54,857 nucleotides of DNA from Candidatus Saccharimonadota bacterium (GTDB lineage Bacteria; Patescibacteriota; Saccharimonadia; Saccharimonadales; Saccharimonadaceae): positions 1 to 54,857 of the forward strand of contig JAGOVX010000002.1 in assembly GCA_018060465.1 (NCBI GenBank), in the 5' to 3' direction. Positions 15,015 through 43,119 of this stretch are shown piece after piece; positions within the stretch are counted from its first letter, which is position 1, and the number at the start of each line of letters is the position of its first letter. The notes below the pieces were generated by a model. It worked only from the letters and a program-made list of their open reading frames with translations, had not been told where the DNA came from and made no database searches. A program made the position numbers and the translations under genes.

Positions 15015-15599
15015 CTACTGAAGTGATTTTATATATCGTACTAGCGAATCGTTTGATATTTCGCTATCAGTCTTGATAAGAACAAGTGTTTCGTCCTTTG
15101 TAAAAATAATTGACCGAGGTCCACCCGCGGCACTTCCAACATAGATCTCCATATCATTTAACGTTATTTTATCGTTGGCATGATAACTTTCGGCCAAATC
15201 CTTGATATTTTCCTTGATATTTTTTGAAAAACTACTGGGAATACGCTGCTGGCTAACAATAATTGGTACAACGCCGACCTTATCTGAAAATGCGTATACT
15301 GGATCTGCACCAGGTGGACTTACTTTTGTCCAGCCACCGAAATCTTTACTGGTTTTACCAGGCGGCAGGTAGGTTTTAAATGTCGGAGTACCCTTTGTTA
15401 GCTTACTTGAACTGGCAACGGTGCGCTTTGATGGGCTTTTTGAGGATGGGCCGGCTTCTGAATGGAAGTTTTTTAGTAGTAGGTATCCAGCAAGCAGTAG
15501 CACAAGACTTACGACAAGCGCAGAACGTGGAATACTGTACAAGATTCGTCGTATGGTACGGCGCCATGAGTGTGCAGGGCGGGGGCTATTAGTGGGCAT
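15015..15599 (-). CDS. membrane-anchored extracytoplasmic protein, last gene of the surface locus
   Basis: 194 residues from the ATG at 15599, which overlaps the end of the giant kelch gene by 11 bp; this coupling is why that start is chosen over an in-frame codon further upstream. It has an Arg-rich N-terminus, a helix (ALVVSLVLLLAGYLLL), a Ser/Lys linker, and an outer domain of about 120 residues (FGGWTKVSPPGADPVYAFSDKVG...). The domain resembles small lipoprotein-like modules but no family is recognised. Its position suggests an accessory role for the giant protein. Confidence 0.6.
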   Translation of the reverse strand: MPTNSPRPAHSWRRTIRRILYSIPRSALVVSLVLLLAGYLLLKNFHSEAGPSSKSPSKRTVASSSKLTKGTPTFKTYLPPGKTSKDFGGWTKVSPPGADPVYAFSDKVGVVPIIVSQQRIPSSFSKNIKENIKDLAESYHANDKITLNDMEIYVGSAAGGPRSIIFTKDETLVLIKTDSEISNDSLVRYIKSLQ

Positions 15600-18500: not shown

Positions 18501-21288
18501 CACTCACATATACATATGCGCCCCAAGCGGTAGCAAAGTCACCACCATTTGACATGCGAGCTGTAGATAAGCTAGTGGTTTGCTCCCAGCTATTTAGGGT
18601 ACCGTCGGAGTTGATCTTGTTGTAGTAGACTCCAGTAAGAGGTGATCCGCCGATACTGCTGGCCCCTCCGATTAAATATAGCCGATCATTGTAGGTAAGG
18701 GCACTATACCCATATGCGTTGTAGGGCAGATTCGTAGAACTTGACCAGCTTCCTAGCCTACCATCAGGAGTTAGATCGGCAATTTGCGTGCTATTAACGA
18801 CAGATGAAACACCTCCGCTACTAGTTATGCCCCCCATCAGGTAAATACGGTTATTGTACGCAACGGCTTTTATGCCACTGCGCGGTGAGCTGAGGTCAGT
18901 ATCACGGTACCAATAATCCCAGTTCGATTTATTGCTATCACTAGGATGCCAGAGTTGGGGTTCGCCATTTGCGCCAATTTTTGCTACGTAGACAGTTTTA
19001 CATATGCCATTATCACCGGTGCCGTTGCCAGTGGTGCAGCTTGAATCTTCACCACCTATAGCATAAAGAAACCCATTGTACGCAACAAGCGAAAACTTTC
19101 CTCTAGGCGAGGGTAGCTTATATTGTGAAGATGTACACCAGCCGCTACAGGCACCGCTACCAGGGTTGGCGCTTTCAATTGTGCCATCAGAGGTATTCAA
19201 ATGTGCCCATGATACTGTGTCAGTTACGCCAGTGTCACTTGCATACGTAATGATCACAATACCGTTGGTACCAGCAGTACCTGCTGTACGAGAGGCTCCA
19301 CCAGTACCTGCGTTACCAGCTCCTGCACGATCTGCGTCGGAATCGTTGCCAGGAGTTGTACCAGTACCAGCGCTCGTGCTTGCTCCGGTTCCAGTGGTAT
19401 AGCTTGAGCCTCCACCACCTCCACCACCTCCGCGGCTTGAGGTACCGTTGTCTGAACCACCACCTCCACCAGCGTAGCCTCCACCACCTCCACCACCACC
19501 AGCGTAGTAGGTATTGACATCACGGGAACCACCCGAGCCACCACCGCTTATACCGCCGTTGCTTGCACTACCATCAGCACCCGCGGCCTTTCGACCGTCG
19601 GCACCAGCTCCACCGGTAAGAGATGATCCGGCTGTTCCGATGTTTGCGCCTGGAGTATTGCTGGTTCCACCAGTTGCACCCGTGGCACCGTTACCGTAGC
19701 CACCACCAGTTGATGCACCTTGAGTACCATTTTGACCATTAGTGCCACCACCGGCTCCACCTGCTCCACCGGTATACCCACCTGTGCGTCCACCACCGGC
19801 TCCACCTGCTCCACCAGCTGCAATCAAAAGAGACGTAGTGCTGCGGGCAATACGCGAGTAGCCACCACCTCCACCACCAACGCCCGAGCTGTTTGTGCCG
19901 CTACCACCACCTGCACCACCAGCTCCACCAACATATACATTCAGAGTTTCACCAGGGGTAACACTTAGGTTTGTCGTTGCATAACCGCCAGCTCCACCAG
20001 ATCCACCGGAAGCTGCGCCACCGCCACCGCCACCGCCTCCACCAGCTCCCCACGCTTTGACGGTGATAGTCGTAATGCCTGTCGGTACAACAAACGTGCT
20101 AGTGCCGGCTGTCGTAAAGGTAGCAATGCCTCCGTCAGGGTGAACGCCACCAACAGAGTAGACGTAGCCACCAGCTGTGGCAACACCTTGTTTCCACTTG
20201 GTTGTGTCAAGCGCAAGCGTACTTGTCCAGCTATCAAAACGTGCGCCAGTAGTGGCGCCTTTCTTAATTACCTTGTTGTCGACGTCAAAGTCGATATTCG
20301 TTTCGTTGTTACCATTCATAAATTGCTGGGCAGTTACAACATAGATACTGGGGTCAATAGAAAGAGGATAGTTTGCTTTTGCAAGACCACTTGTAACAAC
20401 ACTCAGCGTGGTTCCGTGTAGTTGGAAGCGCGATTTTATGGGCGTTTTGCTAGGGCGAGCTTCGACAATGACAGGGCGGGGAATTGAAAACAGAAGGTAA
20501 TCTTTTTTGGCATTTGCACGCGCTTTTTCCAATAGGGCTGTATCACTTTCACTCGACGCAGTTATATTGTTCATTAATAAACTATTGCCATACACACCAA
20601 TACTGCCATCTTTTTCGGCACGAGCTTCTGTGCCAGAGGGAAGTTTTAGCTGGTAGTCAAATGTTTGCGTGTCACCACCCGATGCATTGTCAAGGATGAT
20701 GTCTTCTTTTAGCCCAGTGCTTTGGGCAGTATATACCAGCCAGCCATTATGATCTCGAAAGGGATACACGATACGAGTATCTTCGGTTTTTTTGCCATCT
20801 GCTAAGGCAAAGCTAGGGCGCACACCGAGTTCAACCCCGCGTGCTTCATCTGATATTGTGACTCCGCGGCCAGCCTTGGCAGCTAGGGTTGCCTTGATAA
20901 GTGATCCGCTTGTTTGTCGAGATGTGTCGCTGTCCGAGGTGCCACTTTTAAAGGAGTATATACCTTTCGATTTGTCAAAGCTGATGCTTTTTTCTAACGC
21001 AGGATTGTTGCGCGGTAAGAGTATAGATGCAGACCGAACGACGTAATTATGGGGCCCAAAAAAGCGATAGAGGTGGTATCCTAGGGCAGCTATAATCGCT
21101 ACAGCTAGTATGGCAATTATGGCCTTGGTTGCCCGTTCTTTTGATGGAAGTGGTATTACGAAATATCGTTTGCCACTTTTTGTACGTTTAACCCATTGGC
21201 TAAAAAGCGACGCCACGAAAGTAGATGGCACTCGCAGCATATGGCGTGCGTTGCTCTTGGTGCGTATTTTTGACGTCTTTATTTTCAT
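15589..21288 (-). CDS. giant surface protein: kelch beta-propellers with inserted Gly-rich domain
   Basis: About 1,899 residues. A basic cytoplasmic N-terminus leads to one helix (about 55-77), so the protein is anchored with the rest outside. A 300-residue beta domain precedes a first kelch-type motif (YVYSVGG); a Gly-rich domain (about residues 410-685) interrupts it; then seventeen more motifs of the form [YLF]-x-Y-x-x-GG follow, enough for two or three propellers. The C-terminus is a separate domain (ARWQLNYRS...). Several Cys pairs recur inside blades (GGCS). A role in attachment to another cell or to glycans is inferred. An in-frame TTG at 21297 is an alternative start. Confidence 0.75.
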   Translation of the reverse strand: MKIKTSKIRTKSNARHMLRVPSTFVASLFSQWVKRTKSGKRYFVIPLPSKERATKAIIAILAVAIIAALGYHLYRFFGPHNYVVRSASILLPRNNPALEKSISFDKSKGIYSFKSGTSDSDTSRQTSGSLIKATLAAKAGRGVTISDEARGVELGVRPSFALADGKKTEDTRIVYPFRDHNGWLVYTAQSTGLKEDIILDNASGGDTQTFDYQLKLPSGTEARAEKDGSIGVYGNSLLMNNITASSESDTALLEKARANAKKDYLLFSIPRPVIVEARPSKTPIKSRFQLHGTTLSVVTSGLAKANYPLSIDPSIYVVTAQQFMNGNNETNIDFDVDNKVIKKGATTGARFDSWTSTLALDTTKWKQGVATAGGYVYSVGGVHPDGGIATFTTAGTSTFVVPTGITTITVKAWGAGGGGGGGGGAASGGSGGAGGYATTNLSVTPGETLNVYVGGAGGAGGGSGTNSSGVGGGGGGYSRIARSTTSLLIAAGGAGGAGGGRTGGYTGGAGGAGGGTNGQNGTQGASTGGGYGNGATGATGGTSNTPGANIGTAGSSLTGGAGADGRKAAGADGSASNGGISGGGSGGSRDVNTYYAGGGGGGGGYAGGGGGSDNGTSSRGGGGGGGGSSYTTGTGASTSAGTGTTPGNDSDADRAGAGNAGTGGASRTAGTAGTNGIVIITYASDTGVTDTVSWAHLNTSDGTIESANPGSGACSGWCTSSQYKLPSPRGKFSLVAYNGFLYAIGGEDSSCTTGNGTGDNGICKTVYVAKIGANGEPQLWHPSDSNKSNWDYWYRDTDLSSPRSGIKAVAYNNRIYLMGGITSSGGVSSVVNSTQIADLTPDGRLGSWSSSTNLPYNAYGYSALTYNDRLYLIGGASSIGGSPLTGVYYNKINSDGTLNSWEQTTSLSTARMSNGGDFATAWGAYVYVSGGCSATNGSGYCTTILDSTQLASINSDGTLDEWNTNASVSDTRTGHSIVAWRNRLYEVGGCSSQNTTTGACTTALSSIKYGTINRDGEASTVASSVSSGTAPCSGANPDTCDLPGVAYVGNVLTGSAIMNGYLYIWGGCSNTTSGCSSVSRGVIYTSISSDGSLVKPSSCGSWSLVDSYCYNTTSLPAGFAAPGSAVANGYLYSVGGFTASGMIGNIYYTAPDPTNGSISSWSTTGLTGIGATSVSYPYSFTRANPSSTSNPNNLYILGGCTNATGIGCPAASNGYTDSVVKCNLSTTGVPSGCTESGQLQIGTVTGASSAGLGAMAGTIYANYIYLMGGLANGATDLKTTRYAKIDNSNNIVAVSGGGWIESSNLTYFGRRRGSGFSYNGYLYVVGGYDGSGGGGVLADIEFAKINVSDGSIGEWHVSTVSINKRWGLNLTVSNSFAYVVGGCIAGSAPTCNAGGQTNSIQTFQVYNNDSGAPASYANAANLYSTNQQRLGGSAAVVNGYLFMAGGCTGTTDCSTPVTTVSSAPLDVYGGVGTWTDQAALPAATGWGKLLAAGGSLYYVGGQNAAGTAQSAVYYATPSGGTIGSWGTASNGLPNARSNFGATVWNNRLYAVGGAGTSTGCSGGVCDTVYVSPQLNSGGNITSAWSTTSTSFNVARSGLAAAAYANNLYIFGGVDSTGIYLSDTQYSQINSSTGDSGSWTYSTSLPKPISQADAIAANGYVYLVGGRSTATTCTPSTLVAPISANTTIATGNNPTGVGAWYTTNQAYTGSRYGAAAAYDGGKLYILGGGCGATVTYPSSANTVQQTTLLSQPQVAKYSIMFDTDSDVFPSYWLLNGVDNSIGARWQLNYRSMANQQAATKCATMTTWGQATNFGDVTLGTPGTYIVKDGSGTNIGCGRFFYFSVAIDSSQAFGYPDDVTRGPTISDLTLQFTADPSKRLMHGRTFTGGLQMPDDTPLYAH
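19240..20060. repeat. low-complexity CCA/GCC-type DNA encoding the Gly-rich domain
   Basis: The plus strand is dominated by CCACCACCACC and CCAGCTCCACC strings, which on the minus strand encode runs of Gly with Ala, Ser and Thr. The repeats are imperfect and coding; long open frames on the plus strand here are by-products of this composition. Confidence 0.8.
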
Positions 21289-21297
21289 AGCCTCCAA

Positions 21298-21326
21298 AGC
21301 TACTCCGGTAGCTATCTGTTATTTTA
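21298..21326 (-). promoter_or_regulatory. candidate promoter and 5' hairpin of the kelch gene
   Basis: On the minus strand TAAAAT (21321-21326) could be a -10 box; the expected RNA would begin almost at a perfect hairpin AGCTAC-CGGA-GTAGCT (21298-21313), followed by TTTGGAGG and the ATG at 21288. The GGAGG is only 2 nt from the ATG, so start selection is uncertain. Confidence 0.35.
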
Positions 21327-21352
21327 GCATAAACAGCATGGCTTCGTAATGG

Positions 21353-24300
21353 CTATTTGTTACTAAATGCGAAGTTTAGGTTGCCTACATAGGCATTGGC
21401 GTTTTGACTTGCCATCACAGTAATCTTGAAGACAATGCTACTACTTGCGGTAAAGCTACAGGTACTTGGATCAGCGGACCCGGTTGCAGTGGCTGTTTGC
21501 CACGATGCTTGCACGCCAGTAGATACGGAGATTGATCCACCACAAGGCGCTAGACCACTTCCGTCGTTGCGGTACACTTGGTAAGTAACAGAGGAGTTTG
21601 TGCTGTCAGTACGTCCCATTAGTGAGGTTTGACCAGAATTGAAGCTCTTGAAGGTGCTTGGAAGTTGGTAGGTGACATAGACACTGTAGTACTGCGAAGT
21701 AGCTTGCGGAGAAGTCCATTTGTAGAAGTTGTAGGTTTCGTTTGATCCACAAATTGTTGGCTGACTGCTGCTGCCATCATTAATATCAAGGTAGTCAGAG
21801 CATAGATCACTTGTCATGGTACCAATGCCTGTGCCGTGCAGTACGGCGTTGGTGTATTCTGGGCTAATCGTGATGATGTTGTCTGGGCTCGAACCGCATG
21901 CACCCCAGCCATCTGCTTCGTAACATTGTAACTTTCCAAGGGTTGTATCGTAGTACATACTGCCGAGTAGTGCATCGTTGTTGGCTGCAATTGGTGCACT
22001 GGCACCCTTGTCGAGCGTAAATAGGGTAGTTGGGCCGCCATTAACACCACCACCAATTTGTACGTTTGGCGTAGAGTTTGAGGCAAGTGTGATTGCAAAG
22101 GTATCAACCAGGAATGTACGAGCGGATGACGCGGCAGCGGTAAAGTAGACATAGGGGTCTGAAGCAGCGGTTCCGCTTGTTGTGAAATAGCAGGTTATCT
22201 GTACCCAGCTATTTCCGACGCTTTGTGTATTGTAGTCGACGCAATCGGTAAAGCTTGTACCACCATCACGAGAATAGCGGACGGTAAAATCATCAAACGC
22301 GCTACCAGAGGTTTGTTTCGCGTACGCCGATACTCGGTAAAGTGTACTAGTAAGTGGGTTAATAGATAGCTTATTTCGGACGCCGCGATAGGTGCCGCCA
22401 GCCGTGATGACTGCTTGGGCACTGTCGCTTGCCTCTTGACCATCGCTGGTATTGCGTGTCACGGTGGAGCCGGTGCCAGTACTTGTCCAGTTGGTTGCAA
22501 AGTTTGTATTGTCATTTACAGTTCCATCGGTTGCGTAGTTGTAGTCGGCGGCGATAGTAACAGACAAGTTGTCGACGTAAAAAGTACGTGCGGTTGCAGC
22601 TGTTTGACGAATCAGTACGGCGTTGCTGGCGGTGATGCCGCTACTTGGAGCAGTGAAGGCGCAGTTTACTTTCGTCCATACACTCGTAACACTTTTGGCT
22701 GTGTTGGTACATGCAACGCTAGCAGCAGTTCCGTCTATCGAGTAGTACACGTTCATGTCGGTGAAGTTGCCGCTGGAAATTCGGGTTGTAAAGCTAATGT
22801 TGTAGTGCATATTTGCGGTAAGAGCGCTTGAAAGCTGGTTCTTGACACCCGTGTTTGCAACGGCTGTAGTGGTAGCAGAGACCGAGCCTTGACCTGTCGC
22901 AATGTAGTTGCCAGCTGTAGTGTAGCGACTGATCGTGGTGCCAGTAAGGGCTGACCAGGTACTTGCAGGGTAGGTGTTGTCTGCAACCCCGCCAGAGCCA
23001 CCGCCAACTTCGGCACCAGCATCTGATGCATATTCAGTCACATTGCTATTTACTTGGAATAAGCCTGCTGCACTTGAAGTTTGCACGCTAAGCAAGGTTC
23101 CGTTGACAGGGCTAACAGTGCTATCACGAATGGTAAGCCCATTAGTATTTGAGGTACTGCTGACTACCAACTCGGCTCCACCTGCCGATTGCAAGGTGTT
23201 ATCGTAGGCTGATTGTAGGGTTGTTGAGCTTGAGGCACCAGCTGCAGTCCAGTCGGCACCATTCCAGATCATTGTTGCGGTAGTATTCTGGCGCATAGCG
23301 ATAGTGTTACCTGTGCCGCCACCATTGACCGAAAGGGTAAAGTCCTGTGAGCCATTTGCCGCCGTAATATATACGACACGACCAGCTGTACTTACTGATG
23401 GATCGGGCATAGTCACTGTTTTACCAGTGGCGTTGAACCCTACAATAATAGCTCCTGAGCCGTTAATAGAGGTAGCAGCGATCGTACAGCTATTTGCTAC
23501 GAGTGAGCCGCCAGTGTAGCAGTTGGCATCGTTTGCAGTTGTTGAGAAGGTAGGGGTATTGATAACAACGAGGCCAGTTGAAGTGCTCGTGCCAGTTGGT
23601 GCACCACCTGAAAGGTAGAGGTTGCCACCGGCTGCATTCGTCGCACCACCAGTACCACCCTGTACGGTTACAGTACCACCAGCACCACTACCATTACCGG
23701 TAGCTCCTTGCATAGTAAGGCCGCTTCCCTGAGTATTACTAGTAGTCTGAGCAACTGCCTGGAGTGTTGTGGCGCTAGTCGCGACACCAAGGTTTATGGT
23801 GCTTGATGATGCGTTAATCGCACTACCTGTTATGCCGACAGTCCCAGTATTGTTACCAATGTTTGTGTTTGCAGTACCGCTGGTATTTATATTGGTGGTG
23901 CCTGTAATATTGGTAGTACCATTTGTAACGGTAAAGTTTTTGCCACTCGCTACAGTTGTGTCGCCGTTCAAGCTCACAGCGCCTGTACCAGTTTTGAAGG
24001 TACCGCTACTCGCAGATTGATCAAAGCTACCAGTTCCAGCTGCAAAGGTTATATTTTTGTTGGCAGCTACTGAAACATCACTGTTGAGGTTGATGGTGCC
24101 GGCAGGAGAAATGTTCACATTGCCACTTGTAGTGGTTTGCAATGTGAGGTCGCCAGCTGTTGTGTTGAGGGCGCTATTTATGTTTGTACTTCCTAGGTTA
24201 GAGAGGGTAGTATTGGCATAGCCACCACTAGTCGCCGCAGTACTCACTACACGCCACAAGCTATTGGTACTGTCATAGACTAGTTGAATTGACGCACCGG

Positions 24301-26524
24301 TTGGTAGGCTAATATCGCCACCAGTTCCAGTAATAATTTTTGAACCCGTTGCGCTGACATTGTTGTTTGCCAGGGTAACGCTCAGTCCATTGATATTTGT
24401 CAGTGTTAGGAATTGGCCGTCGCGCCCTACGGTAATACCCTGAATAACCTGGGCAGCACCGGAAGTGTTAAGCAAGTAGTATGATGCTGTTGCCAGGGCA
24501 GCGTTCGTAGAAGTGCCAGGGGTTGTGAATGCAGAGCCAGCTTTTGTAGCAAATGATGCACTGCTGGCAATGTCGGTATTGCCGTTCAAGCTGACAGTAC
24601 CAGTACCAGTGGCAAACGTACCTGAGCCATTTTGCATAAAGTTACCGCTGGCCATTGTAATACCAGTTGTACCAGTAATGGCACCGGCTGTACTAAGGTT
24701 GAAGGTGTTGCTGCTCAGCTGCAACGTACCCGTTCCGTTGCCTATACTTGTGGCGGCCGTACCCGATGTATTGATATTTGTGGTACCCGATATGGTTACG
24801 GTGCTACCAGTAAGCCCCAAGGTTCCGGTGGCGTTTCCGATACTGCTATTTGCTGTTCCAGACGTGTTGATGTTTGTGGTACCTGTCAGGCTGGTAGTGC
24901 CACTGGTCACAGTCAAGTTTTTGCCGCTGGCAACAGACACATCGCTGTTTAAGTTTATGGTGCCAGCAGGGGCAAGGTTGATATTGCCACTCGTGGTGGT
25001 TTGCAATGTTAAGTCTGCTCCGGTTGAATTAAGAGCGGCATTTATATTCGTACTACCAAGGTTAGAAAGGCTGGTATTTGCGTAGCCACCACTGGTAGCA
25101 ACCGATCCGTTTACTCGCCAGAAACTCGTTGCGGCCGAGCCAGACCAATCGTACACTAATTCAACACTTGCCCCAGCTGGTAGGGTAAGGTCGCTACCGG
25201 TACCAGTGATGATTTGATTGCCTGCGCTTGAGCTACCTGAATTGTTGGACAGGATTGCTGCCTGTGAAGCACTGTTTACAAGTGTGAGGCGGCGTCCATC
25301 GCTCGCGGCAGTTCCGGCAGAAATTCCAGTGATTGTTTGTGCGCTCGCGCCAGTCAGGCGAATCAACGCGCCGCTTAGGGCAACGTTATTTGTGCTGCCT
25401 ACTGTGCTATAGTCTGTTCCCTTTGCGGTGCTAAAGTTTTTACCACTCGCGACTGTAGTGTCGCCATTTAGACTCACTGCACCCGTACCAGTTTTCAAAG
25501 TGCCAGAGCTTGCCGATTGATCAAAGTTGCCGCTACCTGCTGCGAATGTCAAGTTTTTGTTGGCTGCGAGCAGAGTATCAGTTCCGAGGGTGATAGTACT
25601 CGTGTTACTGGTGCCAATGGAAATTGTCCCATCGGCACCAGTACCAGTCTTTGCGCCAGCATTGATGACAACATTGCCACCAGTGCCATTAGTGCCGCCG
25701 GCAGCGCCACCTTGTAGTACCAGGTCTCCACCTGCACTACCTGTGCCACTGCCGCCGGCTCCTGCGCCTACGGTGAGGTCATTCCCGCCCGTGCCGGCTC
25801 CTGCCGTTGCTACCGAAATTGTGTGGTCTGAATTAGAGCCGAGCGCTATATCACCGCTGTTTGAAACGGTAAATACGTCGGTACCGGATGATTGTAGCTG
25901 CATGAAATTACCTCCTCCGGTCTTGTTGAGGTATACGCTAGTTGTATTGGACGATGCATCTGTTTGAACACCTTGTGCGAGCTGAATGAACTGAGTACTG
26001 GTGAGTCCACCAAGCTTGCCAGAGTTGAGGGCATACGGGCTAGAGGACATGCGCTTCATTGGTACCATTTCTCCGTCACCACCACAGTCGGCGTTAAACG
26101 AAGTGGTAATTGTACAACTAGAGGTGTTACCAATATTGACACTAAGCCACAGCGTGTCTTGGTTCCAGTCGATGCTACTACCAAATGCAGTGACAGAGCC
26201 AAGTTCTACCGACAAGTAGCCGTTGCGAATTGAAATACCGTTGCTGCCACTATTGAGCCAGTTTTCGGTCCATTTCAAGGTACCACCAGGGTTGCCGGCT
26301 GCGGTGCCAGCGCCATCTTGGTAGATTTTGAACTGAAGGTTATAGTTGCCATCTGGTACAATCGCGCCTTGCGAATTGTAGAGGCGGCCTTGGAAATTCA
26401 AATGATCGTTAATACCCGCGACAGCAGAAACAGGGTGGTTCAAAGCGAATACACCCATACTGATTATGCCAACGATTACGGCGACGCCTATAAATAGACG
26501 AGATATCCTACCACCAAGGTACAC
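21353..26524 (-). CDS. giant secreted beta-strand-repeat protein with carbohydrate-binding-like domains
   Basis: 1,723 residues from GTG 26524. Residues 9-29 form a signal peptide/anchor with likely cleavage after an A-x-A type site. A head domain (LNFQGRLYNSQG...NYNLQFKIYQDG) is followed by about 850 residues of Gly/Thr/Asn/Ser strand repeats (LTLQTTTSG, GTINLNSD, GTTNINTSG) that suggest a long beta-helix or fibre, containing an internal duplication. Two related jelly-roll-like domains of about 150 residues come next (each ends with RTF.VD), and a C-terminal Cys-containing domain closes the chain. A host-contact or adhesin role is inferred. No sortase motif is visible. Confidence 0.75.
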   Translation of the reverse strand: MYLGGRISRLFIGVAVIVGIISMGVFALNHPVSAVAGINDHLNFQGRLYNSQGAIVPDGNYNLQFKIYQDGAGTAAGNPGGTLKWTENWLNSGSNGISIRNGYLSVELGSVTAFGSSIDWNQDTLWLSVNIGNTSSCTITTSFNADCGGDGEMVPMKRMSSSPYALNSGKLGGLTSTQFIQLAQGVQTDASSNTTSVYLNKTGGGNFMQLQSSGTDVFTVSNSGDIALGSNSDHTISVATAGAGTGGNDLTVGAGAGGSGTGSAGGDLVLQGGAAGGTNGTGGNVVINAGAKTGTGADGTISIGTSNTSTITLGTDTLLAANKNLTFAAGSGNFDQSASSGTLKTGTGAVSLNGDTTVASGKNFSTAKGTDYSTVGSTNNVALSGALIRLTGASAQTITGISAGTAASDGRRLTLVNSASQAAILSNNSGSSSAGNQIITGTGSDLTLPAGASVELVYDWSGSAATSFWRVNGSVATSGGYANTSLSNLGSTNINAALNSTGADLTLQTTTSGNINLAPAGTINLNSDVSVASGKNLTVTSGTTSLTGTTNINTSGTANSSIGNATGTLGLTGSTVTISGTTNINTSGTAATSIGNGTGTLQLSSNTFNLSTAGAITGTTGITMASGNFMQNGSGTFATGTGTVSLNGNTDIASSASFATKAGSAFTTPGTSTNAALATASYYLLNTSGAAQVIQGITVGRDGQFLTLTNINGLSVTLANNNVSATGSKIITGTGGDISLPTGASIQLVYDSTNSLWRVVSTAATSGGYANTTLSNLGSTNINSALNTTAGDLTLQTTTSGNVNISPAGTINLNSDVSVAANKNITFAAGTGSFDQSASSGTFKTGTGAVSLNGDTTVASGKNFTVTNGTTNITGTTNINTSGTANTNIGNNTGTVGITGSAINASSSTINLGVATSATTLQAVAQTTSNTQGSGLTMQGATGNGSGAGGTVTVQGGTGGATNAAGGNLYLSGGAPTGTSTSTGLVVINTPTFSTTANDANCYTGGSLVANSCTIAATSINGSGAIIVGFNATGKTVTMPDPSVSTAGRVVYITAANGSQDFTLSVNGGGTGNTIAMRQNTTATMIWNGADWTAAGASSSTTLQSAYDNTLQSAGGAELVVSSTSNTNGLTIRDSTVSPVNGTLLSVQTSSAAGLFQVNSNVTEYASDAGAEVGGGSGGVADNTYPASTWSALTGTTISRYTTAGNYIATGQGSVSATTTAVANTGVKNQLSSALTANMHYNISFTTRISSGNFTDMNVYYSIDGTAASVACTNTAKSVTSVWTKVNCAFTAPSSGITASNAVLIRQTAATARTFYVDNLSVTIAADYNYATDGTVNDNTNFATNWTSTGTGSTVTRNTSDGQEASDSAQAVITAGGTYRGVRNKLSINPLTSTLYRVSAYAKQTSGSAFDDFTVRYSRDGGTSFTDCVDYNTQSVGNSWVQITCYFTTSGTAASDPYVYFTAAASSARTFLVDTFAITLASNSTPNVQIGGGVNGGPTTLFTLDKGASAPIAANNDALLGSMYYDTTLGKLQCYEADGWGACGSSPDNIITISPEYTNAVLHGTGIGTMTSDLCSDYLDINDGSSSQPTICGSNETYNFYKWTSPQATSQYYSVYVTYQLPSTFKSFNSGQTSLMGRTDSTNSSVTYQVYRNDGSGLAPCGGSISVSTGVQASWQTATATGSADPSTCSFTASSSIVFKITVMASQNANAYVGNLNFAFSNK
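23860..24640. repeat. intragenic duplication, copy 2
   Basis: Encodes (minus strand) a module with TGTVSLNGN, LPTGAS..LVYD, GGYANTTLSNLGSTNIN, LTLQTTTSG and GTTNINTSG in that order, matching the order in copy 1 about 0.95 kb away. Nucleotide similarity is clear but diverged. Confidence 0.7.
24800..25570. repeat. intragenic duplication, copy 1
   Basis: Encodes the first copy of the same module (FDQSASSGT, TGAVSLNGDTTVASGKN, LPAGAS..LVYD, GGYANTSLSNLGSTNIN, LTLQTTTSG). The FDQSASSGT part recurs a second time near 23940-24060, showing partial shuffling. Confidence 0.7.
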
Positions 26525-33034: not shown

Positions 33035-35675
<2,641 letters not shown>

Positions 35676-35683
<8 letters not shown>

Positions 35684-37202
35684 GGTCGGCCTCTTTTTTC
35701 TTATCTTTTTTATTTTTCTTGTTCTTGTTCTTTTCGTCGACTGCTTCAGCTGGAACTTCAACTGGTTTTGGCTTTTCAACTACTACCTCGGCGCCAAACG
35801 CTTGCAGTAATTCTGCTTCGATGCGGTCAAAATCTTCCTCACTTTGCGCTTCTGCTGCGCGTTGTTTGACTGCGGTGCGCAAGGCTGCAACATCAATCGG
35901 GCGATCATCCTGACTGAGCATAATGGTTTCGAGCATCAGTTGTTGTTCGATGAGTGAAAATAGTTCTTCAGGCGGCTGCTGCAACGCCATATATAAATGC
36001 TTTCCACGAGCTAGGTCTAGCCTGGCATCTCGCGATAGCTGCGAACTAAAGTGCGAGAACTCCTCTGCCTGGTGATACCGAGCAAGTGACTTAAAAAGTG
36101 CGGTAGATAGCTGTTTCTGACGAGTTGTTTGGGCTTGTCCACCCACGCGGGACACAGATAGACCGGCGTTGACAGCTGGACGTACACCCTTACGAAAGAA
36201 ACCTAGATCAAAAATAATTTGCCCATCGGTGATAGACATAATATTGGTGGGGAGGTAGGCGGTAATATCGTCATTTGGAGTTAGCACAACGGGCAGGCTC
36301 GTGAGAGTCTTTCCATTAGTAAGCAACTTGCCGGCACGTTCTAGAAGGCTGGAGTGGGTGTAGAAAATATCGCCAGGATAGCTATCTCGCCCTGGGTCAA
36401 CTTCCTGTAAAAGGGAAAGTTGTCGATACGCTTCGGCATGGCCGCTTAGGTCGTCATAGATAATAATAACGTCTCGATTTTCGTTGTACCACAATTCCTC
36501 AGCCATAGCACAGGCCGCATAGGGGGCAAGGTAGCTTTGGGTTAAGGAATCGAAAATATCAGCTTGAACGATGATGGTATTTTTGATGGCGCCTGAATCA
36601 TTTAATTCAGCGATAAGGTGCTCGACATCTACTTTTCGCTTGCCTATTAGCACGTACACTACCAAGCGATCGGTGCCTTGTTGGTTGGCGCTTAACTGAC
36701 TTAAAAAAGTACTTTTACCAGACTTGCTATCACCGAGGATGGCAATACGCTGCCCGAGTACGATCGGGAAAAAGCTATCGACAGCAGTGACGCCACTTGC
36801 TAATTGCTGGTCGAGCATCTTGCGATCCATAATACCGGGTGCGGGGGTAAAAATACCAGAAAATTTAGCTGCTTTTAGTGCACCTTTGCCATCAAGCGGA
36901 TTGCCCATCGGGCTAATAACTCGGCCTACGAGCTCGGGTCCTACTGGAACTTGGAGTTGTGGCCGTTCTACAACCACCAAGCTACCGAGTGCCACATCTT
37001 CAGTATCAATATTGTACAAGATGACTCGGTTGCCGTGCGCTTCTCGCACCATGCCACGTTGACCGTCCTGGAATAATATTTGGGCGCCCACCTGGACACC
37101 TTCGAGTCCTCGAACTTCCACAATAAAACGGTTTACAGCGATAACTTCACCTGTCAAATTGTCGGCTTCTACTAGTTTTTGAAATTGGGCTGTATCAAAC
37201 AC
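35676..37202 (-). CDS. atpA: ATP synthase alpha subunit
   Basis: 508 residues. The P-loop is GDSKSGKST (157-165) rather than the common GDRQTGKT, and VIIIYDDLSGHAEAYRQ plus YPGDIFYTHSSLLERAGKL are clear family signatures. The arginine finger is in GVRPAVNAGLSVSRVGGQAQ. The last 30 residues are a Lys/Asn/Glu-rich tail (NKKNKKDKKKE), atypical for the family. It overlaps the delta gene by 8 bp. Confidence 0.95.
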
Positions 37203-37680
37203 GACGTAGTACCTCGGGCAGGCTCGCCTTGTTGTCTAGAATTGCCCGTCGAATAGACCAGTCGTAAATATGACTACCGCTTCGCACCACCATACCGCCT
37301 AGAATGGTGGCATTAAAATCGAAAGTAACTAGCATAGTGGGGGTAATGTGCTGTCGGCACCAGGCAACAATTGTAGTTTTTAATTTTCGTGACGCCGGCG
37401 CAGCCAGGGTAACGGTCATGCTGGGTGCTTGTTTTTGGTATGCCTCTAGGGTTTGTAGAAGCTCATCCAGGCGTACCGTTGTGAGTGGCTGACTTGTTCC
37501 CCAGGTTCGTATTACTTCTACCGCGACAGGCGACAGCGACAAGGCGTGGTTGCTGGCAGCGACGTGTACTTGTTTTTTTATGGACTCATGAGCAAACCAG
37601 CGGGCATATTCTTTGACATCTAAAATCAAGGCCATCAAATCTTGGGATGAGGCAATCGTATCGGGTAGGCTAAAGCTCAT
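37195..37680 (-). CDS. atpH: ATP synthase delta (OSCP) subunit
   Basis: 161 residues; the normal length is about 175-180. The N-terminal helical bundle is divergent, but the C-terminal signature (LGGMVVRSGSHIYDWSIRRAI) matches the family's GG..V..G....D.S.R pattern. It joins the b stalk to the top of F1. Overlaps atpF by 4 bp (ATGA) and atpA by 8 bp. Confidence 0.88.
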   Translation of the reverse strand: MSFSLPDTIASSQDLMALILDVKEYARWFAHESIKKQVHVAASNHALSLSPVAVEVIRTWGTSQPLTTVRLDELLQTLEAYQKQAPSMTVTLAAPASRKLKTTIVAWCRQHITPTMLVTFDFNATILGGMVVRSGSHIYDWSIRRAILDNKASLPEVLRRV

Positions 37681-38405
37681 ATGCCTAGCCCTTCCCGTAG
37701 CTCGTCTTTGTGTGCTTCTAGTTGTTCTAGTAGGTAGGTTTCTTGGGCGCCTAGGTCAACCTCGTGTTGCAAGGTTTCTGTGAGGAAAGAGGCTACAACA
37801 TCGGCAAGCTTTGCATCCATTTTTTTCAACAAGCGATCTTTCTCGGCTGCCATCTCGGCCTCTAGCTGGGTAGTGAGTTCAACCTTGCGTGCCTCAAGAG
37901 TTTTGTCGATTTCGGCCTGCCTACTCGTTAGGGTTCCTTCTAGACTGGTTTGCAGTTCAATCAAGCGAGCTTCAAAAGCAGATTGGCGTTCGGCTAGTTT
38001 GGCTTCTAGTTCAGCTTGGTGGTTTATAAGATTATGCTCGGCTTCTGCGGCTGCGTGTTTGGCATTCGACAAGACTTCAGCCAGGTTATCTTTGTATAGC
38101 TTCATCTCGGTTTCTACCACGTCGGCACCGACTTTTTCTAGAACAGCATTGAGTTGACTAGTGGTTTCGGCCAGATCTTTTTGTAGTTGGCTTGATGACT
38201 TTTCCAGTACGACTGAAAAATTCTGCTGAGCCGTAGCAAGCAAGTTTTTTCTAAGTTCCTCAGATACAGGATGTTCTTCTGCAATTGTCTTTTGGTTTTT
38301 CTTTGGTCGAAAATGAGCATAGGCATGCTGCGCTCCAAATACTGCCAAGCCACCCATCACAAAGATGTTTAGCATCAGAAAAACTTGTAGCACCCCACCG
38401 CTCAT
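37677..38405 (-). CDS. atpF: ATP synthase b subunit (peripheral stalk), long form
   Basis: 242 residues, much longer than the usual 155-170. One N-terminal helix (about 4-24) is followed by about 190 residues of continuous Ala/Glu/Lys/Leu-rich coiled coil and a short C-terminal region (TYLLEQLEAHKDELREGL). The identity rests on this architecture and on operon position immediately before delta. The ATG lies 6 nt after a TATAAT box formed across the previous gene's stop codon, so the F1 genes may be transcribed independently. Confidence 0.82.
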   Translation of the reverse strand: MSGGVLQVFLMLNIFVMGGLAVFGAQHAYAHFRPKKNQKTIAEEHPVSEELRKNLLATAQQNFSVVLEKSSSQLQKDLAETTSQLNAVLEKVGADVVETEMKLYKDNLAEVLSNAKHAAAEAEHNLINHQAELEAKLAERQSAFEARLIELQTSLEGTLTSRQAEIDKTLEARKVELTTQLEAEMAAEKDRLLKKMDAKLADVVASFLTETLQHEVDLGAQETYLLEQLEAHKDELREGLGI

Positions 38406-38411
38406 ACTTCC

Positions 38412-38417
38412 ATTATA
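38412..38417 (-). promoter_or_regulatory. -10 box (TATAAT) internal to the ATP synthase operon
   Basis: On the minus strand TATAAT overlaps the TAA stop of the 270-residue gene and is 6 nt from the atpF ATG, the same spacing as at other leaderless starts in the window. No -35 box is evident. Confidence 0.5.
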
Positions 38418-39225
38418 ACCTTGTTAGTACCAAATATATTGCTATTATGCCCACAGTTAGAATTGCCATCACGAGCGTCGACATTTGTATGAGGTCACGA
38501 TAGATGGCGGACTGACTCATTGGGTTACGGCCAACAGAGATAATACTACTGCGGATCATCGAGTAAATAATGCTAGAAACTATCACCAGCATCACGAAAA
38601 AGATACCGGCGCTGACTAGCACGGGCAACGGACTTACTTCTTTGCCGGCCAATGAATTTGCAATATTTTGGATTGCAGTAGGGATCAAGGTGCGTTCTGG
38701 TTGCTTGAAAAAGTAGGATACGTTTATTAGAACTGGCACCTCGCCTAGCGTGATCTGCTCGTCTTTGCCATTGTCTCCTTTGATGGTTTGCTTGTCTTGG
38801 ACTACCATGTCGCCCTGCGCAATCCCAACAATACGCACGTTTCCATTTGCACGCATACCGATACCGGAAATTGGCGATGCCGTAATATGGTCGCCACGGT
38901 GGATAGTGCCATTTATGTCTGAAGCGAGCACCGACATAGTGCCCTCGCTTGCGACTTGAACCTGGTTGCCATTCTTGCTCGAGATACGTAGTAGTGAATT
39001 GTCAGAGTTTATGACAACCCCAAAAATGTTATCGGCATTCTTGCTCGTGGCTGCTACCACCTCATCAGTTGAGTCTTTCTTTAGACTTACAATAGATCCT
39101 TCAGTCAGGGTATCGCTGGTTTGGTAACTTTGAGAAATTGGAGTAATCGCAAGCACCACTTGAGAGAGCAGACTGCTGCCCACCAAGATTCCCACCAGTA
39201 TACGGCCCATCCATCTTCTACTCAT
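38413..39225 (-). CDS. unknown exported/membrane protein with a C-terminal helical hairpin, first gene of the ATP synthase operon
   Basis: 270 residues: signal peptide or helix (about 7-27), an outer beta-rich domain (30-150; SIVSLKKDSTDEVV, IFGVVINSD, GDHITASP) and two C-terminal helices separated by ISVGRNPMSQSAIYRD. The GRNP loop and the AIYLVL end of the second helix recall the hairpin of ATP synthase subunit c, but the proton-binding Glu position is Gly and the first-helix GxGxGxG motif is absent. It may be an Fo-associated scaffold or a degenerate c-like protein. TATACT 13 nt upstream is the likely -10 box. Confidence 0.65.
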   Translation of the reverse strand: MSRRWMGRILVGILVGSSLLSQVVLAITPISQSYQTSDTLTEGSIVSLKKDSTDEVVAATSKNADNIFGVVINSDNSLLRISSKNGNQVQVASEGTMSVLASDINGTIHRGDHITASPISGIGMRANGNVRIVGIAQGDMVVQDKQTIKGDNGKDEQITLGEVPVLINVSYFFKQPERTLIPTAIQNIANSLAGKEVSPLPVLVSAGIFFVMLVIVSSIIYSMIRSSIISVGRNPMSQSAIYRDLIQMSTLVMAILTVGIIAIYLVLTRL

Positions 39226-39310: not shown

Positions 39311-39421
39311 GTGACACATCGCAGACACACGCAAGACGGCTTTACAGTTTTAGAAGTGTTGATAGTTGTTGGCGTAATCATTCTACTTGGGCTGATGATT
39401 TACTTTATGCAGTCCAGCTAA
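39311..39421 (+). CDS. type IV pilin-like micro-protein, 36 aa
   Basis: Starts at GTG 39311 behind AAGGAG (39294-39299). After eight mainly polar residues comes a perfect prepilin peptidase site DG/FTVLE: Gly at -1, Phe at +1, Glu at +5, followed by a 20-residue hydrophobic helix (VLIVVGVIILLGLMIYFM) and stop. The usual globular pilin head is missing altogether. If processed, it would be a bare pilin helix that could act as a minor subunit or membrane plug. TATTAT at 39283-39288 is a possible -10 box. Confidence 0.6.
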   Translation: MTHRRHTQDGFTVLEVLIVVGVIILLGLMIYFMQSS

Positions 39422-39456: not shown

Positions 39457-40614
39457 ATGCATCGATATTTTGTTTCTAGCACCGACCAAATTACACCCAG
39501 TACACTTTTACTGACTCTTAGAAAAGATCCTGATGAAGCACGCTTATTCAGCTTTCAACCTGGGCAATATTCTGCTATCGAGTATCGCCGTCATGGTCGA
39601 CCAAGCGTATCACGTTGTTTTTCTATCGTTAGTTCACCTACCGAACAGGATACCCTGCAATTTTCTATGCGAACGAGGGGCACCTATACAACAGCACTTA
39701 CCAAACTCGTCCAAGGCGACGAAGTGTTTGTACGTGGGCCATTCGGTGGTTTCATTTTCGACAGCAGTCGTGATGAACGGGCTGTTTTTATTGCTGGCGG
39801 CATAGGCATAACACCTTTTATCAGTATGGTGCGCTATGCAACAACGCTTCAGTTAAAAAATCATATTACGCTACTTTACGGAGTTGCCACGCAGGACGAT
39901 ATTCCGTTCTTGGATGAGCTTACCAAACTTCAATCACACAACCCACATCTGCGTATTGTCTATGTTGTTGGCAATGGTCCCACCGACAAACTGGCCGAAA
40001 AAACAGCATGCAGTGGGTTTATTAATGAACATGTGCTCGATACCTATGCCAATACGTACAGCGATGCCACGTATTTTATTTGCGGCCCACCACCACTTAT
40101 GAACGGTGTCGTAAAAGTACTTCGTAGCAAGAAAGTACCAAGTCGTCGCCTCATAACCGAAGCATTTAGCCAGGGCTCAAACCGTCAAACTGGTAAAGTA
40201 TTGAGTTGGCCACAAAATATGTATGTCTTGGGTGGAGTAGGTTTCGCGCTGGGTGCACTTGCGATTATGGTTGCCGATATTGCCAAATCACTGCCAAACA
40301 GTAATGTCGTAAAAGGTGAAGGCGTCATTGACTTGCTATCTGACCAAAATCAGCGTGAAAAAGATCTCGACGACATGGTGAACAGGTTGTCGAACGATAG
40401 TGAAAAACGGGGGAGTAGCCAAGCACTGGTCAAGGCGCAGAAGGATGCCAGCACGGCAGGTACTACCACTGTTCAAGACAGCCCGGCATACGTGGCTCCT
40501 TCTCCCAGCGCAGCTTCCTCAGGCGCATCTTCGGGCGGTAGCCCCGTGGCAGCACCAGCGCCGTCACAGCCAGTTTGTACAACGTCGCAAAGTGGAATCA
40601 CTACGTGCAATTAG
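39457..40614 (+). CDS. ferredoxin-NAD(P)H reductase-like flavoprotein with membrane anchor and outer tail
   Basis: 385 residues. The FAD domain shows RCFSIVSSP and GPFGGF; the NAD(P) domain shows GGIGITPFISM and FICGPPPLMNGV (to about residue 245). A single helix (about 254-274) follows, then a Ser/Ala/Pro-rich tail of about 100 residues ending with two Cys (VCTTSQSGITTC). The reductase part should face the cytoplasm and pass electrons from NAD(P)H to a membrane partner, probably the haem protein at 41559. First gene of the redox cluster; TGTAAT 7 nt before the ATG may be a leaderless -10 box. Confidence 0.85.
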   Translation: MHRYFVSSTDQITPSTLLLTLRKDPDEARLFSFQPGQYSAIEYRRHGRPSVSRCFSIVSSPTEQDTLQFSMRTRGTYTTALTKLVQGDEVFVRGPFGGFIFDSSRDERAVFIAGGIGITPFISMVRYATTLQLKNHITLLYGVATQDDIPFLDELTKLQSHNPHLRIVYVVGNGPTDKLAEKTACSGFINEHVLDTYANTYSDATYFICGPPPLMNGVVKVLRSKKVPSRRLITEAFSQGSNRQTGKVLSWPQNMYVLGGVGFALGALAIMVADIAKSLPNSNVVKGEGVIDLLSDQNQREKDLDDMVNRLSNDSEKRGSSQALVKAQKDASTAGTTTVQDSPAYVAPSPSAASSGASSGGSPVAAPAPSQPVCTTSQSGITTCN

Positions 40615-41558
40615 AGACGTATCATGACGAAAAACAAGCTCTGGGCGGCCTTGCTACAATCACTCTCGTAACGTCACTTCCATCTTCGATAGTCCACGAG
40701 AAACTAGCATCGTTGTGGCGTGAGATTTTCTATTTTGAAAAAAAGTTTAGTCGTTTTTTACCGAATAGCGAGCTTACACGTTTCAATAAAAAGGCTGGCA
40801 TACGAGTGCCAGTATCACCAGAGATGCGCAGTGTACTGCGAGCCGCACAGACATGGGCCGTACGTACAGATGGACTGTATAATCCTTTTATCTTGCCTGC
40901 CTTGCAAAGAGCGGGGTACAAACATTCTGCTGTAGAGGGCTACCAAGACGATCAAACGCCAGACTACACCGATCGACACAGCATGCCTGCCGCATCTTTA
41001 GAGATTTCAGATGATTGGGCGTGCATCCCGCATCAGGCGGCGCTTGATCTGGGAGGTATGGGCAAGGGCTATTTGCTTGATGCGCTCGCGGCAAAATTGC
41101 AGCATCCTGCTATTGTGGGATTTTGGCTGGAACTAAGCGGTGATATTATTTCATACGGTACAGATCAGGATGGTCGGCCAATTGTGATAGGCATTCAGTC
41201 AGCCAAAGATACCCAGCAGCGACACAAAAAACTACAAATAGTTGTTGACGGTTCGTTGCTTGGAGTTGCAACCTCTGGTACGTTTCGGCGTACTGCAGAG
41301 AAGTCTGAGCTGCGACACCATATTATTGACCCAAGAACTGGCATGTCAGCGGAAACAGATGTAGTACTCGCAACAGTCTGCGCACCAACTGCACTTGCTG
41401 CCGATATACTGGCATCGTGTGCAGTCATTATGGGTGCTACAAAGGCGCCTGCGTTTTTAGCGGGCTGTAACGCTTCAGCTTGGGTGCTACAATATATAAC
41501 AGCAAGTGGTGCGTATGACCACACGACACATGGTAGCTATGTCAAAGAAGGAAACTAG
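40605..41558 (+). CDS. apbE: FAD:protein FMN transferase (ApbE)
   Basis: 317 residues from a GTG overlapping the reductase stop by 10 bp. The family motifs are present: NSELTRFNK, GLYNPFILPAL, DLGGMGKGYLLD and HHIIDPRTG. ApbE uses FAD to attach FMN covalently to Thr/Ser in target proteins, usually outside the membrane; this copy has no evident signal peptide or lipobox in the chosen frame, so its compartment is unclear. Its target should be a neighbour, but no standard [ST]GAT site is seen; the nearest is SGAS (355-358) in the reductase tail. Confidence 0.9.
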   Translation: MQLETYHDEKQALGGLATITLVTSLPSSIVHEKLASLWREIFYFEKKFSRFLPNSELTRFNKKAGIRVPVSPEMRSVLRAAQTWAVRTDGLYNPFILPALQRAGYKHSAVEGYQDDQTPDYTDRHSMPAASLEISDDWACIPHQAALDLGGMGKGYLLDALAAKLQHPAIVGFWLELSGDIISYGTDQDGRPIVIGIQSAKDTQQRHKKLQIVVDGSLLGVATSGTFRRTAEKSELRHHIIDPRTGMSAETDVVLATVCAPTALAADILASCAVIMGATKAPAFLAGCNASAWVLQYITASGAYDHTTHGSYVKEGN

Positions 41559-42281
41559 GTGAAAAAGTATCTAAAGAATATGGTAGTAGCTGGCCTTCTA
41601 ATAGGCATGGTAGGTGTTGCTACGTGGCCGGCTCGGGTTGAGGCAACGAGTGGTACTGCCACTGTAAAGAGTGTCCCCGGGCAGTCGCTTTCAGATGTTG
41701 TGTTGACACGAGCTAAAAATTCTTGGCCATGGTATATTGTGCGGGCATCAGGGCTCGTTGCAGGCATAGCGCTTGTAGTACTAATGCTTTCGGGTATTGG
41801 TTCTGTAACTGGTCATAGCTTTAAATTCCTAGAACCCCTTACAGCCTGGGCGACGCATCGAGCGCTTGGTATTGTGCTAGCTGTCAGTATGGGAACTCAT
41901 ATGATTATGTTGCTATTTGACCATTTTATACCGTTCACGATACCAAGCCTCCTGGTGCCGTGGGTATCTCAGTACAAACCAGTTACACTATTTGGCATTC
42001 ATTTTGGATCACTCTATGTCGCTATGGGAATTTTGGCGTTTTATGGAGCGTTGGCAATTGTGCTCACATCGCTTTTGTGGATTGATAAAAAGCCAAAAAT
42101 TTGGAAAACTCTACATATTTGTTCATATGGCGTGATTGCCTTGGTATTTTTCCACGCCTTATTTATGGGGACAGACACCGGTGAAGGGCTTATTCGTCTG
42201 GCGTGGATTGCCGGTGGGCTAACGATCGCAATTGCAGCGCTCGCTCGTCTTAGAAGGGTAGGTACAACCCGTGATCCGTAG
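41559..42281 (+). CDS. ferric-reductase-like transmembrane haem protein
   Basis: 240 residues beginning with GTG immediately after the apbE stop. A signal-like helix (8-27) precedes about five membrane helices. Paired His residues occur in ATHRALGIVLAVSMGTHMIML and in LHICSYGVIALVFFHALFMGTDTG, as expected for two b-haems in the FRD/YedZ (MsrQ) fold. Coupled to the adjacent NAD(P)H reductase it could carry electrons across the membrane. No MsrP molybdoenzyme is nearby. Confidence 0.82.
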   Translation: MKKYLKNMVVAGLLIGMVGVATWPARVEATSGTATVKSVPGQSLSDVVLTRAKNSWPWYIVRASGLVAGIALVVLMLSGIGSVTGHSFKFLEPLTAWATHRALGIVLAVSMGTHMIMLLFDHFIPFTIPSLLVPWVSQYKPVTLFGIHFGSLYVAMGILAFYGALAIVLTSLLWIDKKPKIWKTLHICSYGVIALVFFHALFMGTDTGEGLIRLAWIAGGLTIAIAALARLRRVGTTRDP

Positions 42282-43119
42282 CGAGCTATATCATTCGCAA
42301 CATCCATATCGTGCGTATTTTTGGTGGGCACTTTTGTATGCTGTCGTGCTGGGTGCCGCATCGCTTGCATTCTTGAAGTTTGCTAGTTCAGTGCATACCT
42401 ACACTACTCCGGCGGGTACAATTTCACTTCACGTTCCCTATAGCAAATATTTGGCAGGTGAAACCATTAACTTCACAGTTAAAAATGGCTTTACAAGTGC
42501 GGTTAGTATAGAAAATAATTGTCCAAACGAGCCATTAACAGTGTATAGATTTGAGAATACGCACTGGAAACGCATTCACTCTCAGGCAAAGGAAGGTGGG
42601 TGCTCACTAAAAGCACGCCACACCACAATCGAGCCAGGCAAGTCGGTTTCGGGGAGCTACAAGAACTGGCCAGATTTATTTCAACAACCTGGGAAGTATC
42701 GACTAGCCTTGAAAGTTGACTATTTCGACACCGTTTCCTACCAAGATTTTACGGTGATAAAAAAGCCCAAAAAGCAAGTAAAAACCATTCACGTGGCAGC
42801 CCCGACAGCTATTCAGCCGTCTAGTCCGGCGCCTCAGCAATCAGGCACATCAAGCAGTTCATCCGGTGGTTCATCAGGCTCGGGTTCGACCACCTATAAA
42901 ACCAAGGTTGTTTCAATCACAGGCGGTAGTATTTCAGTAAAATATAGCGCCACAACTGTGTATGTACTTTCAATATCACCAAACTCTGGCTGTAGTTACG
43001 AGGGTGGTGGTTCGGGCAGCCAAGTCGAAGTTCAATTTAAATGTGGCGGTACCGAAACTCAGGTGCAAATGTATGTTTCGGGTGGTCAACTTGTTACAAA
43101 AGTCGAACAGGATGACTAG
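42271..43119 (+). CDS. membrane-anchored extracytoplasmic protein of the redox cluster
   Basis: 282 residues from a GTG overlapping the haem-protein gene by 11 bp. One helix (about 16-36) leads to an Ig-like domain (GTISLHVPYSKYLAGETINFTVKN..., about 48-165) with Cys pairs (NCPNEP, GGCSLK), a Ser/Gly linker (about 185-208) and a second small domain with two Cys (NSGCSYEGG, FKCGGT). The strict coupling to the redox genes suggests that it receives electrons or holds a substrate, but no cofactor motif is visible. Confidence 0.65.
   Translation: MIRSELYHSQHPYRAYFWWALLYAVVLGAASLAFLKFASSVHTYTTPAGTISLHVPYSKYLAGETINFTVKNGFTSAVSIENNCPNEPLTVYRFENTHWKRIHSQAKEGGCSLKARHTTIEPGKSVSGSYKNWPDLFQQPGKYRLALKVDYFDTVSYQDFTVIKKPKKQVKTIHVAAPTAIQPSSPAPQQSGTSSSSSGGSSGSGSTTYKTKVVSITGGSISVKYSATTVYVLSISPNSGCSYEGGGSGSQVEVQFKCGGTETQVQMYVSGGQLVTKVEQDD

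Follow-up and report, generated by a model that had tools for sequence, protein, structure and literature searches.

A putative electron-exporting operon of Saccharibacteria with a candidate FMN attachment tag at the end of an exported reductase tail

The DNA analysed here ("the window") comprises positions 1 to 54,857 (54,857 nucleotides, forward strand) of contig JAGOVX010000002.1 from a Candidatus Saccharimonadota bacterium (assembly GCA_018060465.1; 885 kb in 63 contigs, 91% complete). Four open reading frames (ORFs) on the plus strand encode a NAD(P)H:FAD (flavin adenine dinucleotide) reductase (FNR), ApbE, a haem protein (HEM) and a protein with an Ig-like domain (IG). They overlap or abut, as a preliminary description of the window had stated, with successive overlaps of 10, 0 and 11 nucleotides. 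The genes and their features are listed below; transmembrane helices and exported sides were assigned from hydropathy.

39457-40614, plus strand: FNR, 385 residues, NAD(P)H:FAD reductase; first gene of the conserved operon
40219..40281, plus strand: transmembrane helix of FNR (residues ~255-275), read from hydropathy and kept in the alignment
40282..40611, plus strand: exported Ser/Ala/Pro-rich tail of FNR (residues 276-385)
40519..40530, plus strand: SGAS in the FNR tail (residues 355-358), the acceptor candidate of the preliminary description; not conserved
40576..40611, plus strand: C-terminal tag CTTSQSGITTCN, with the proposed flavin mononucleotide (FMN) acceptor Ser379 (codon AGT, 40591-40593)
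40605 (GTG)-41558, plus strand: ApbE, 317 residues, FAD:protein FMN transferase; a TTG at 40575 is a possible alternative start
41559-42281, plus strand: HEM, 240 residues, membrane cytochrome with a ferric-reductase domain and two predicted b haems
41856..41900, plus strand: codons of His100 and His114 of HEM, spacing 14
42114..42155, plus strand: codons of His186 and His199 of HEM, spacing 13
42271-43119, plus strand: IG, 282 residues, anchored by a single transmembrane helix, with two beta domains; accessory

FNR matches PF00175 (NAD_binding_1) at 70.8 bits and PF00970 (FAD_binding_6) at 29 bits, and carries the cofactor motifs RCFSIVS, AGGIGITP and CGPP. Its N-terminal domain is cytosolic and is followed by one transmembrane helix and an exported tail of ~110 residues; the reductase has its own anchor and Ser/Ala/Pro tail, as previously described. 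ApbE scores 161.2 bits against PF02424 (gathering cut-off 25.6), and its matches to solved ApbEs in the PDB reach 3.7e-20. The catalytic positions are occupied by Ser224, His239 and Asp267, in the segments TSG, HHIID and AAD that align with the solved proteins. Judged by hydropathy, neither the window ApbE nor its homologues have a hydrophobic N-terminal segment that could form a signal peptide or lipobox. The window ApbE is probably cytosolic, and ApbEs of the FMN_bind type at the compared loci look equally so.

HEM scores 27.3 bits against PF01794 (Ferric_reduct), slightly below the cut-off of 28, and a relative at locus L088 scores 36.5, above it. An alignment of 41 HEM sequences from distant lineages, with identities down to 29%, contains 12 invariant residues, among them H100, H114, H186 and H199, which make up the histidine pairs of ferric-reductase domains first noticed in the window protein. 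In the ferric reductase superfamily four histidines arranged in this way mark a bis-haem protein, and two haems are predicted here. A profile search found STEAP4 (E 1.6e-4) and, weakly, SpNOX. The predicted model has a predicted local distance difference test score (pLDDT) of 89, and its best Foldseek matches are SpNOX, NOX5, NOX2, STEAP2 and DUOX1 (probability 0.96-1.00, E at best 2e-3, TM-score at most 0.54).

IG scores 21.2 bits against PF20251 (Big_14), below the cut-off of 27, and a search of its profile against PDB sequences gave no useful match. Its model (pLDDT 86) has one N-terminal transmembrane helix and beta domains at residues ~50-165 (Big_14/BsuPI-like) and 208-281; the first resembles Ig-like folds including BsuPI 3isy (TM-score 0.50, target-normalised). 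Many IG homologues (L079, L084, L089-L103 and others) end in a conserved Gly/Ser run followed by Asp-Asn (GGGGDN at the C-terminus).

A protein search with HEM across 295 genomes of Saccharimonadales gave matches in 52, of which 44 were judged strong; the metagenome-assembled genomes (MAGs) among those compared are incomplete. Larger regions of the HEM genomes display two forms of the operon, FNR-ApbE-HEM-IG (group A) and FNR-ApbE-HEM (group B). A scan of named genome contigs yielded 67 loci, 32 with the four-gene and 17 with the three-gene order. Most of the remainder are interrupted by contig ends or by the ORF calling, which overlooked HEM or FNR at L076, L082, L086, L097 and L128 and ApbE at L151. 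The loci belong mainly to Candidatus Saccharibacteria, and also to Parcubacteria, Berkelbacteria, Moranbacteria and Azambacteria. Gene order is kept in dozens of Saccharibacteria and only partly in Parcubacteria, Moranbacteria and Berkelbacteria. Because the order recurs in dozens of genomes, the gene cluster is not a chance arrangement, and because group B lacks IG, we regard IG as accessory. Of the earlier suggestion that the genes form one complex, the comparisons support a single conserved redox assembly expected to move electrons to the outside, but not the inclusion of all four genes in the unit.

The FNR tail ends in a conserved tag, [S/T]-x-x-[S/T], found at the C-terminal end, or a few residues before it, of exported proteins with a single transmembrane helix. 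Such a protein is encoded at every haem-linked ApbE locus that could be read. Saccharibacteria carry the tag on the FNR tail. The window tail ends in CTTSQS-GITTCN, and its C-terminal motif has a single match in the whole genome. Group A tails end in TTAS-IPPP, TTVS-VPRP, TTRPS-KIP, CQTTPS-GRCI or CTTSQS-GVTTCV, and group B tails in TSVS, STVS, TAVS, TRAS or STAS. Parcubacteria, Moranbacteria and Azambacteria have no FNR beside ApbE-HEM; a small, unrelated protein with one transmembrane helix and a flexible tail stands there instead, ending in TTTKAS, TTRVS, TKTS or RTTVS.

The tag hypothesis was fixed at this point, and further ApbE loci from across the phylum were then collected to test it. 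All new loci of the tag clade with readable neighbours carried the tag: on stand-alone proteins at L140, L142, L152, L157 and L164 (KTRTS, KTKTS, TTKTS, VTKTS), on an FNR ending in RTTVS at L151, and at L171 on a protein (SRAS) encoded ~2 kb away on the opposite strand. The FNR of L140 is tailless and another protein bears the tag: the same components, split over two chains. Overall, the tag is present at 56 of the 58 HEM-linked ApbE loci without FMN_bind; in one of the two exceptions a Peptidase_S74 domain comes after TTAS, and the other is an overlooked ORF ending in SMMS. It is missing from 41 of the 42 ApbE loci with FMN_bind (the exception is L122), and its background rate is ~6 per 1,300 unrelated ORFs.

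In a set of 70 distinct tails, T occupies position -3 in 60 and S in 10, and position 0 is S in 68 and T in 2. The search pattern for the "bare" class already required S/T at -3, and the one for the Cys class required a T close by; less constrained evidence comes from position 0 in the "ext" class and from the codon test. The acceptor Ser is encoded by all six of its codons (TCA, TCG, TCT, TCC, AGT and AGC) and the Thr twice by ACT, and the distance to the start of the next gene ranges from -40 to +316 nucleotides. The use of all six codons and the varied spacing indicate selection on the amino acid and not on a ribosome site.

Other candidate acceptors were rejected. SGAS, proposed in the preliminary description together with a check of its conservation, is absent from the tails of FNR homologues and is ruled out, as is the N-terminal QGPSV segment of HEM, which is kept in group A alone and contains no [S/T]GA[S/T]. 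The last two Cys of the tail, whose conservation had also been in question, are kept in one sub-type only (31 of 66 tails), where they flank the broader [S/T]xxS tag, and not elsewhere. Two tails (L060:741-2150 and L109) run directly from the tag TTAS into a Peptidase_S74 endosialidase-chaperone domain (PF13884), a phage-type domain here attached to a redox protein. Peptidase_S74 domains cleave themselves off at a Ser-Asp junction, which would leave the TTAS tag terminal. Seven loci with stand-alone tag proteins (L129, L133, L134, L137, L140, L142 and L164) have an extra small exported protein, often acidic, between the tag protein and ApbE; in several of them it contains DxDxDG-like calcium-binding repeats, and similar repeats occur there in the N-terminus of HEM.

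The ApbE proteins divide along the same line. In a tree of 66 ApbEs a single branch (95/90) parts the tag-linked proteins from FMN_bind-linked and other ApbEs; four rows marked "fmn" on the tag side are false labels. L146 lies at a contig start, and the tag protein of L171 is on the other strand. The window ApbE falls on the tag side, and it adjoins an exported, anchored tail with S/T at positions 0 and -3 near its end.

As the preliminary description had noted, ApbE lacks a recognised FMN acceptor domain beside it: the window gave no FMN_bind match, and neither, when FMN-binding targets were sought as that description proposed, did the rest of the 91%-complete genome. FMN_bind matches are likewise lacking in 21 of the 44 HEM genomes, and about ten of these 21 are at least 95% complete. 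The operon had been placed in a lineage of little respiration, a view that suits the window's genome, where no COX1 (haem-copper oxidase) was found, and holds only in part for the order, in which 148 of 295 sampled genomes have COX1. COX1 is enriched in HEM genomes (34 of 44, against 114 of the other 251). The COX1 of one genome of the same genus is interrupted by an in-frame TAA (G288:C5:154359-155706), reflecting either a decaying oxidase or an assembly error.

We conclude that the operon is, on balance, probably a NAD(P)H-oxidising membrane electron exporter in which ApbE attaches FMN to Ser379 of the C-terminal tag of FNR. By analogy with the protein families concerned, FNR would oxidise NAD(P)H on the cytosolic side and pass the electrons to its FAD, and HEM would carry them across the membrane from an inner haem at H100/H186 to an outer haem at H114/H199. 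Outside, they would pass to FMN linked by a phosphoester to Ser379, and the FNR tail would act as a tethered arm that brings the flavin to an acceptor on the cell surface or further out. Candidate acceptors are Fe(III), O2, quinones and the carriers of a partner cell. A cytosolic ApbE would flavinylate the tail prior to its export, and IG may be an optional surface partner.

Several points weigh against this interpretation. Neither the Asp nor the Gly of the canonical motif D-x-x-[S/T]-G-A-[S/T], of which the last residue is flavinylated, is present in the tag. In favour of the proposal, published work shows that the motif can largely do without its Asp, that ~50% activity remains after a G-to-A or A-to-V change, and that seven-residue flavinylation tags work best at termini (PMC12052999). 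ApbE appears cytosolic whereas the tag ends outside, which is equally so for the FMN_bind-type ApbEs at these loci; cytosolic ApbEs are known (PMC12052999), so a missing signal peptide is no bar to membership of the family. The connection between tag and ApbE is genetic and not chemical, and with ApbE, HEM and tag genes linked, co-segregation alone is no proof of an enzyme-substrate pair. The compared sequences are related, so that p-values overstate their independence and serve only as a guide. Finally, no ferrochelatase was found in the window's genome; haem would therefore probably have to be acquired, and a relative has been proposed to scavenge it (PMC6031116).

The alternative that best survives, though we think it unlikely, keeps the same electron-exporting complex and makes the FMN acceptor an unlinked protein or a cytosolic target, while the tag would serve for docking or sorting, with HEM, the cell wall or a surface partner as possible destinations. 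In its favour, the tag never occurs apart from HEM any more than from ApbE, no signal peptide is seen on ApbE, the canonical Gly/Ala are missing from the tag, and an incomplete MAG could hide an acceptor. However, about half of the HEM genomes, many of them near complete, have no FMN_bind match; the hydroxyl is kept through the S-to-T exchange, as a flavin acceptor requires; and the ApbE tree parts by tag versus FMN_bind.

Retention of the transferase Ser, His and Asp positions argues against a second alternative, in which ApbE is an FAD pyrophosphatase or FMN supplier, no covalent flavin is formed, and the complex is a NOX (NADPH oxidase)-like ferric or oxygen reductase with FAD and haem only. 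NOX-type enzymes need nothing beyond FAD and two haems. T. pallidum Ftp is reported to hydrolyse FAD (PMC4767422). Such a scheme nevertheless leaves the invariant hydroxyl of the tag and the tag/FMN_bind split unexplained, and we consider it improbable. Less probable still is an importer or quinone-linked branch that would bring electrons inward from outside or from quinols: the association with haem-copper oxidase genomes would permit a connection to the quinone pool, but FNR domains of this class normally oxidise NAD(P)H, no quinone site was recognised, and no COX1 was found in the window's genome. That the conserved tail end serves only to couple translation, or follows from its overlap with the beginning of apbE, with no function in the protein, is largely refuted and scarcely credible: in the Cys sub-type FNR does run into the start codon of apbE (ACATGC), and the last T-C is thereby fixed, yet only that final T-C coincides with the start, stand-alone tag genes precede other genes, and the TCN, AGY and ACT codons together with the spacing given above rule out a ribosome-binding-site or gene-overlap origin.

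Several neighbouring genes deserve mention. A 36-codon pilin-like peptide (DGFTVLEVLIVVGVIILLGLMIYFMQSS; 39311-39421, plus strand) lies immediately 5' of the reductase gene. The minus strand at 33292-39225 carries a set of F1-ATPase-like genes (beta, gamma, alpha, delta and b) among which no a or c subunit was recognised, plus a 270-residue protein (38413-39225) whose C-terminal hairpin contains GRNP. Canonical ATP-synt_A and ATP-synt_C are found on another contig, C42, and the set may represent a second F-type ATPase of non-canonical type. At 15589-26524 on the minus strand, two exported proteins of very large size (1902 and 1723 residues), repetitive and with glycine-rich and kelch-like repeats, are probable surface structures.

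The proposal for the window has a wider form that we regard as evenly poised: in Patescibacteria a dedicated ApbE group may place FMN on a Ser that tips an unstructured tail, tethered to the membrane and lacking any folded flavin-binding domain, to form a swinging arm that takes electrons outward from a NOX-like bis-haem protein. The sequence comparisons suggest that a Ser at the end of a flexible outside tail is a kind of flavin attachment site new to description. If so, a bare C-terminal peptide, instead of a folded domain, would constitute a new class of ApbE substrate, transmembrane electron export would extend to many ultra-small, mostly fermentative bacteria, and the retention of ApbE genes without an FMN_bind partner would be explained. 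No paper tying ApbE or flavinylation to Saccharibacteria or Patescibacteria was found in the literature searched. The published survey of flavinylation discarded clusters in which none of its target genes had a signal peptide (PMC8238504), and a system of the window type would therefore escape it.

The window operon resembles members of the NADPH oxidase/ferric reductase domain (FRD) superfamily (SpNOX, csNOX5, NOX2, DUOX and STEAP) in its bis-haem transmembrane core, His pairs 14 and 13 apart, and FAD/NAD(P)H dehydrogenase partner. It differs in having the haem core and the dehydrogenase on separate chains, in the dehydrogenase's own anchor and exported, tagged tail, and in the presence of ApbE in the operon. 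With the flavinylation-associated transmembrane systems (MsrQ-like, PepSY-like and NQR/RNF-like; PMC8238504, PMC11334425) it shares a cytosolic donor, a membrane carrier, ApbE and a presumptive extracytosolic flavin; in contrast to them it has no FMN_bind, its four products match no published acceptor family, and its ApbE lacks a signal peptide. The Lactococcus FMN_red (PMC11334425) likewise has its flavinylation site on an unstructured C-terminal extension, but its tail extends to a flavin-binding domain that is folded, and the sequence is motif-like, whereas the window tail is membrane-anchored and has a degenerate [S/T]xxS end. A saccharibacterial NqrF/NqrB-like protein has been described (PMC6031116). 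In the same lineage, an NqrB/NqrF-like (NQR/RNF-like) fusion with FMN_bind and a 247-residue ApbE (L053:8964-11704) follows the same logic of moving electrons from NAD(P)H to an exported flavin, with a different membrane carrier, a canonical TGAT/SGAT FMN_bind acceptor and an ApbE on the opposite side of the tree. This canonical system lies on the same contig as both tag-type operons, bringing three flavin electron-export systems together.

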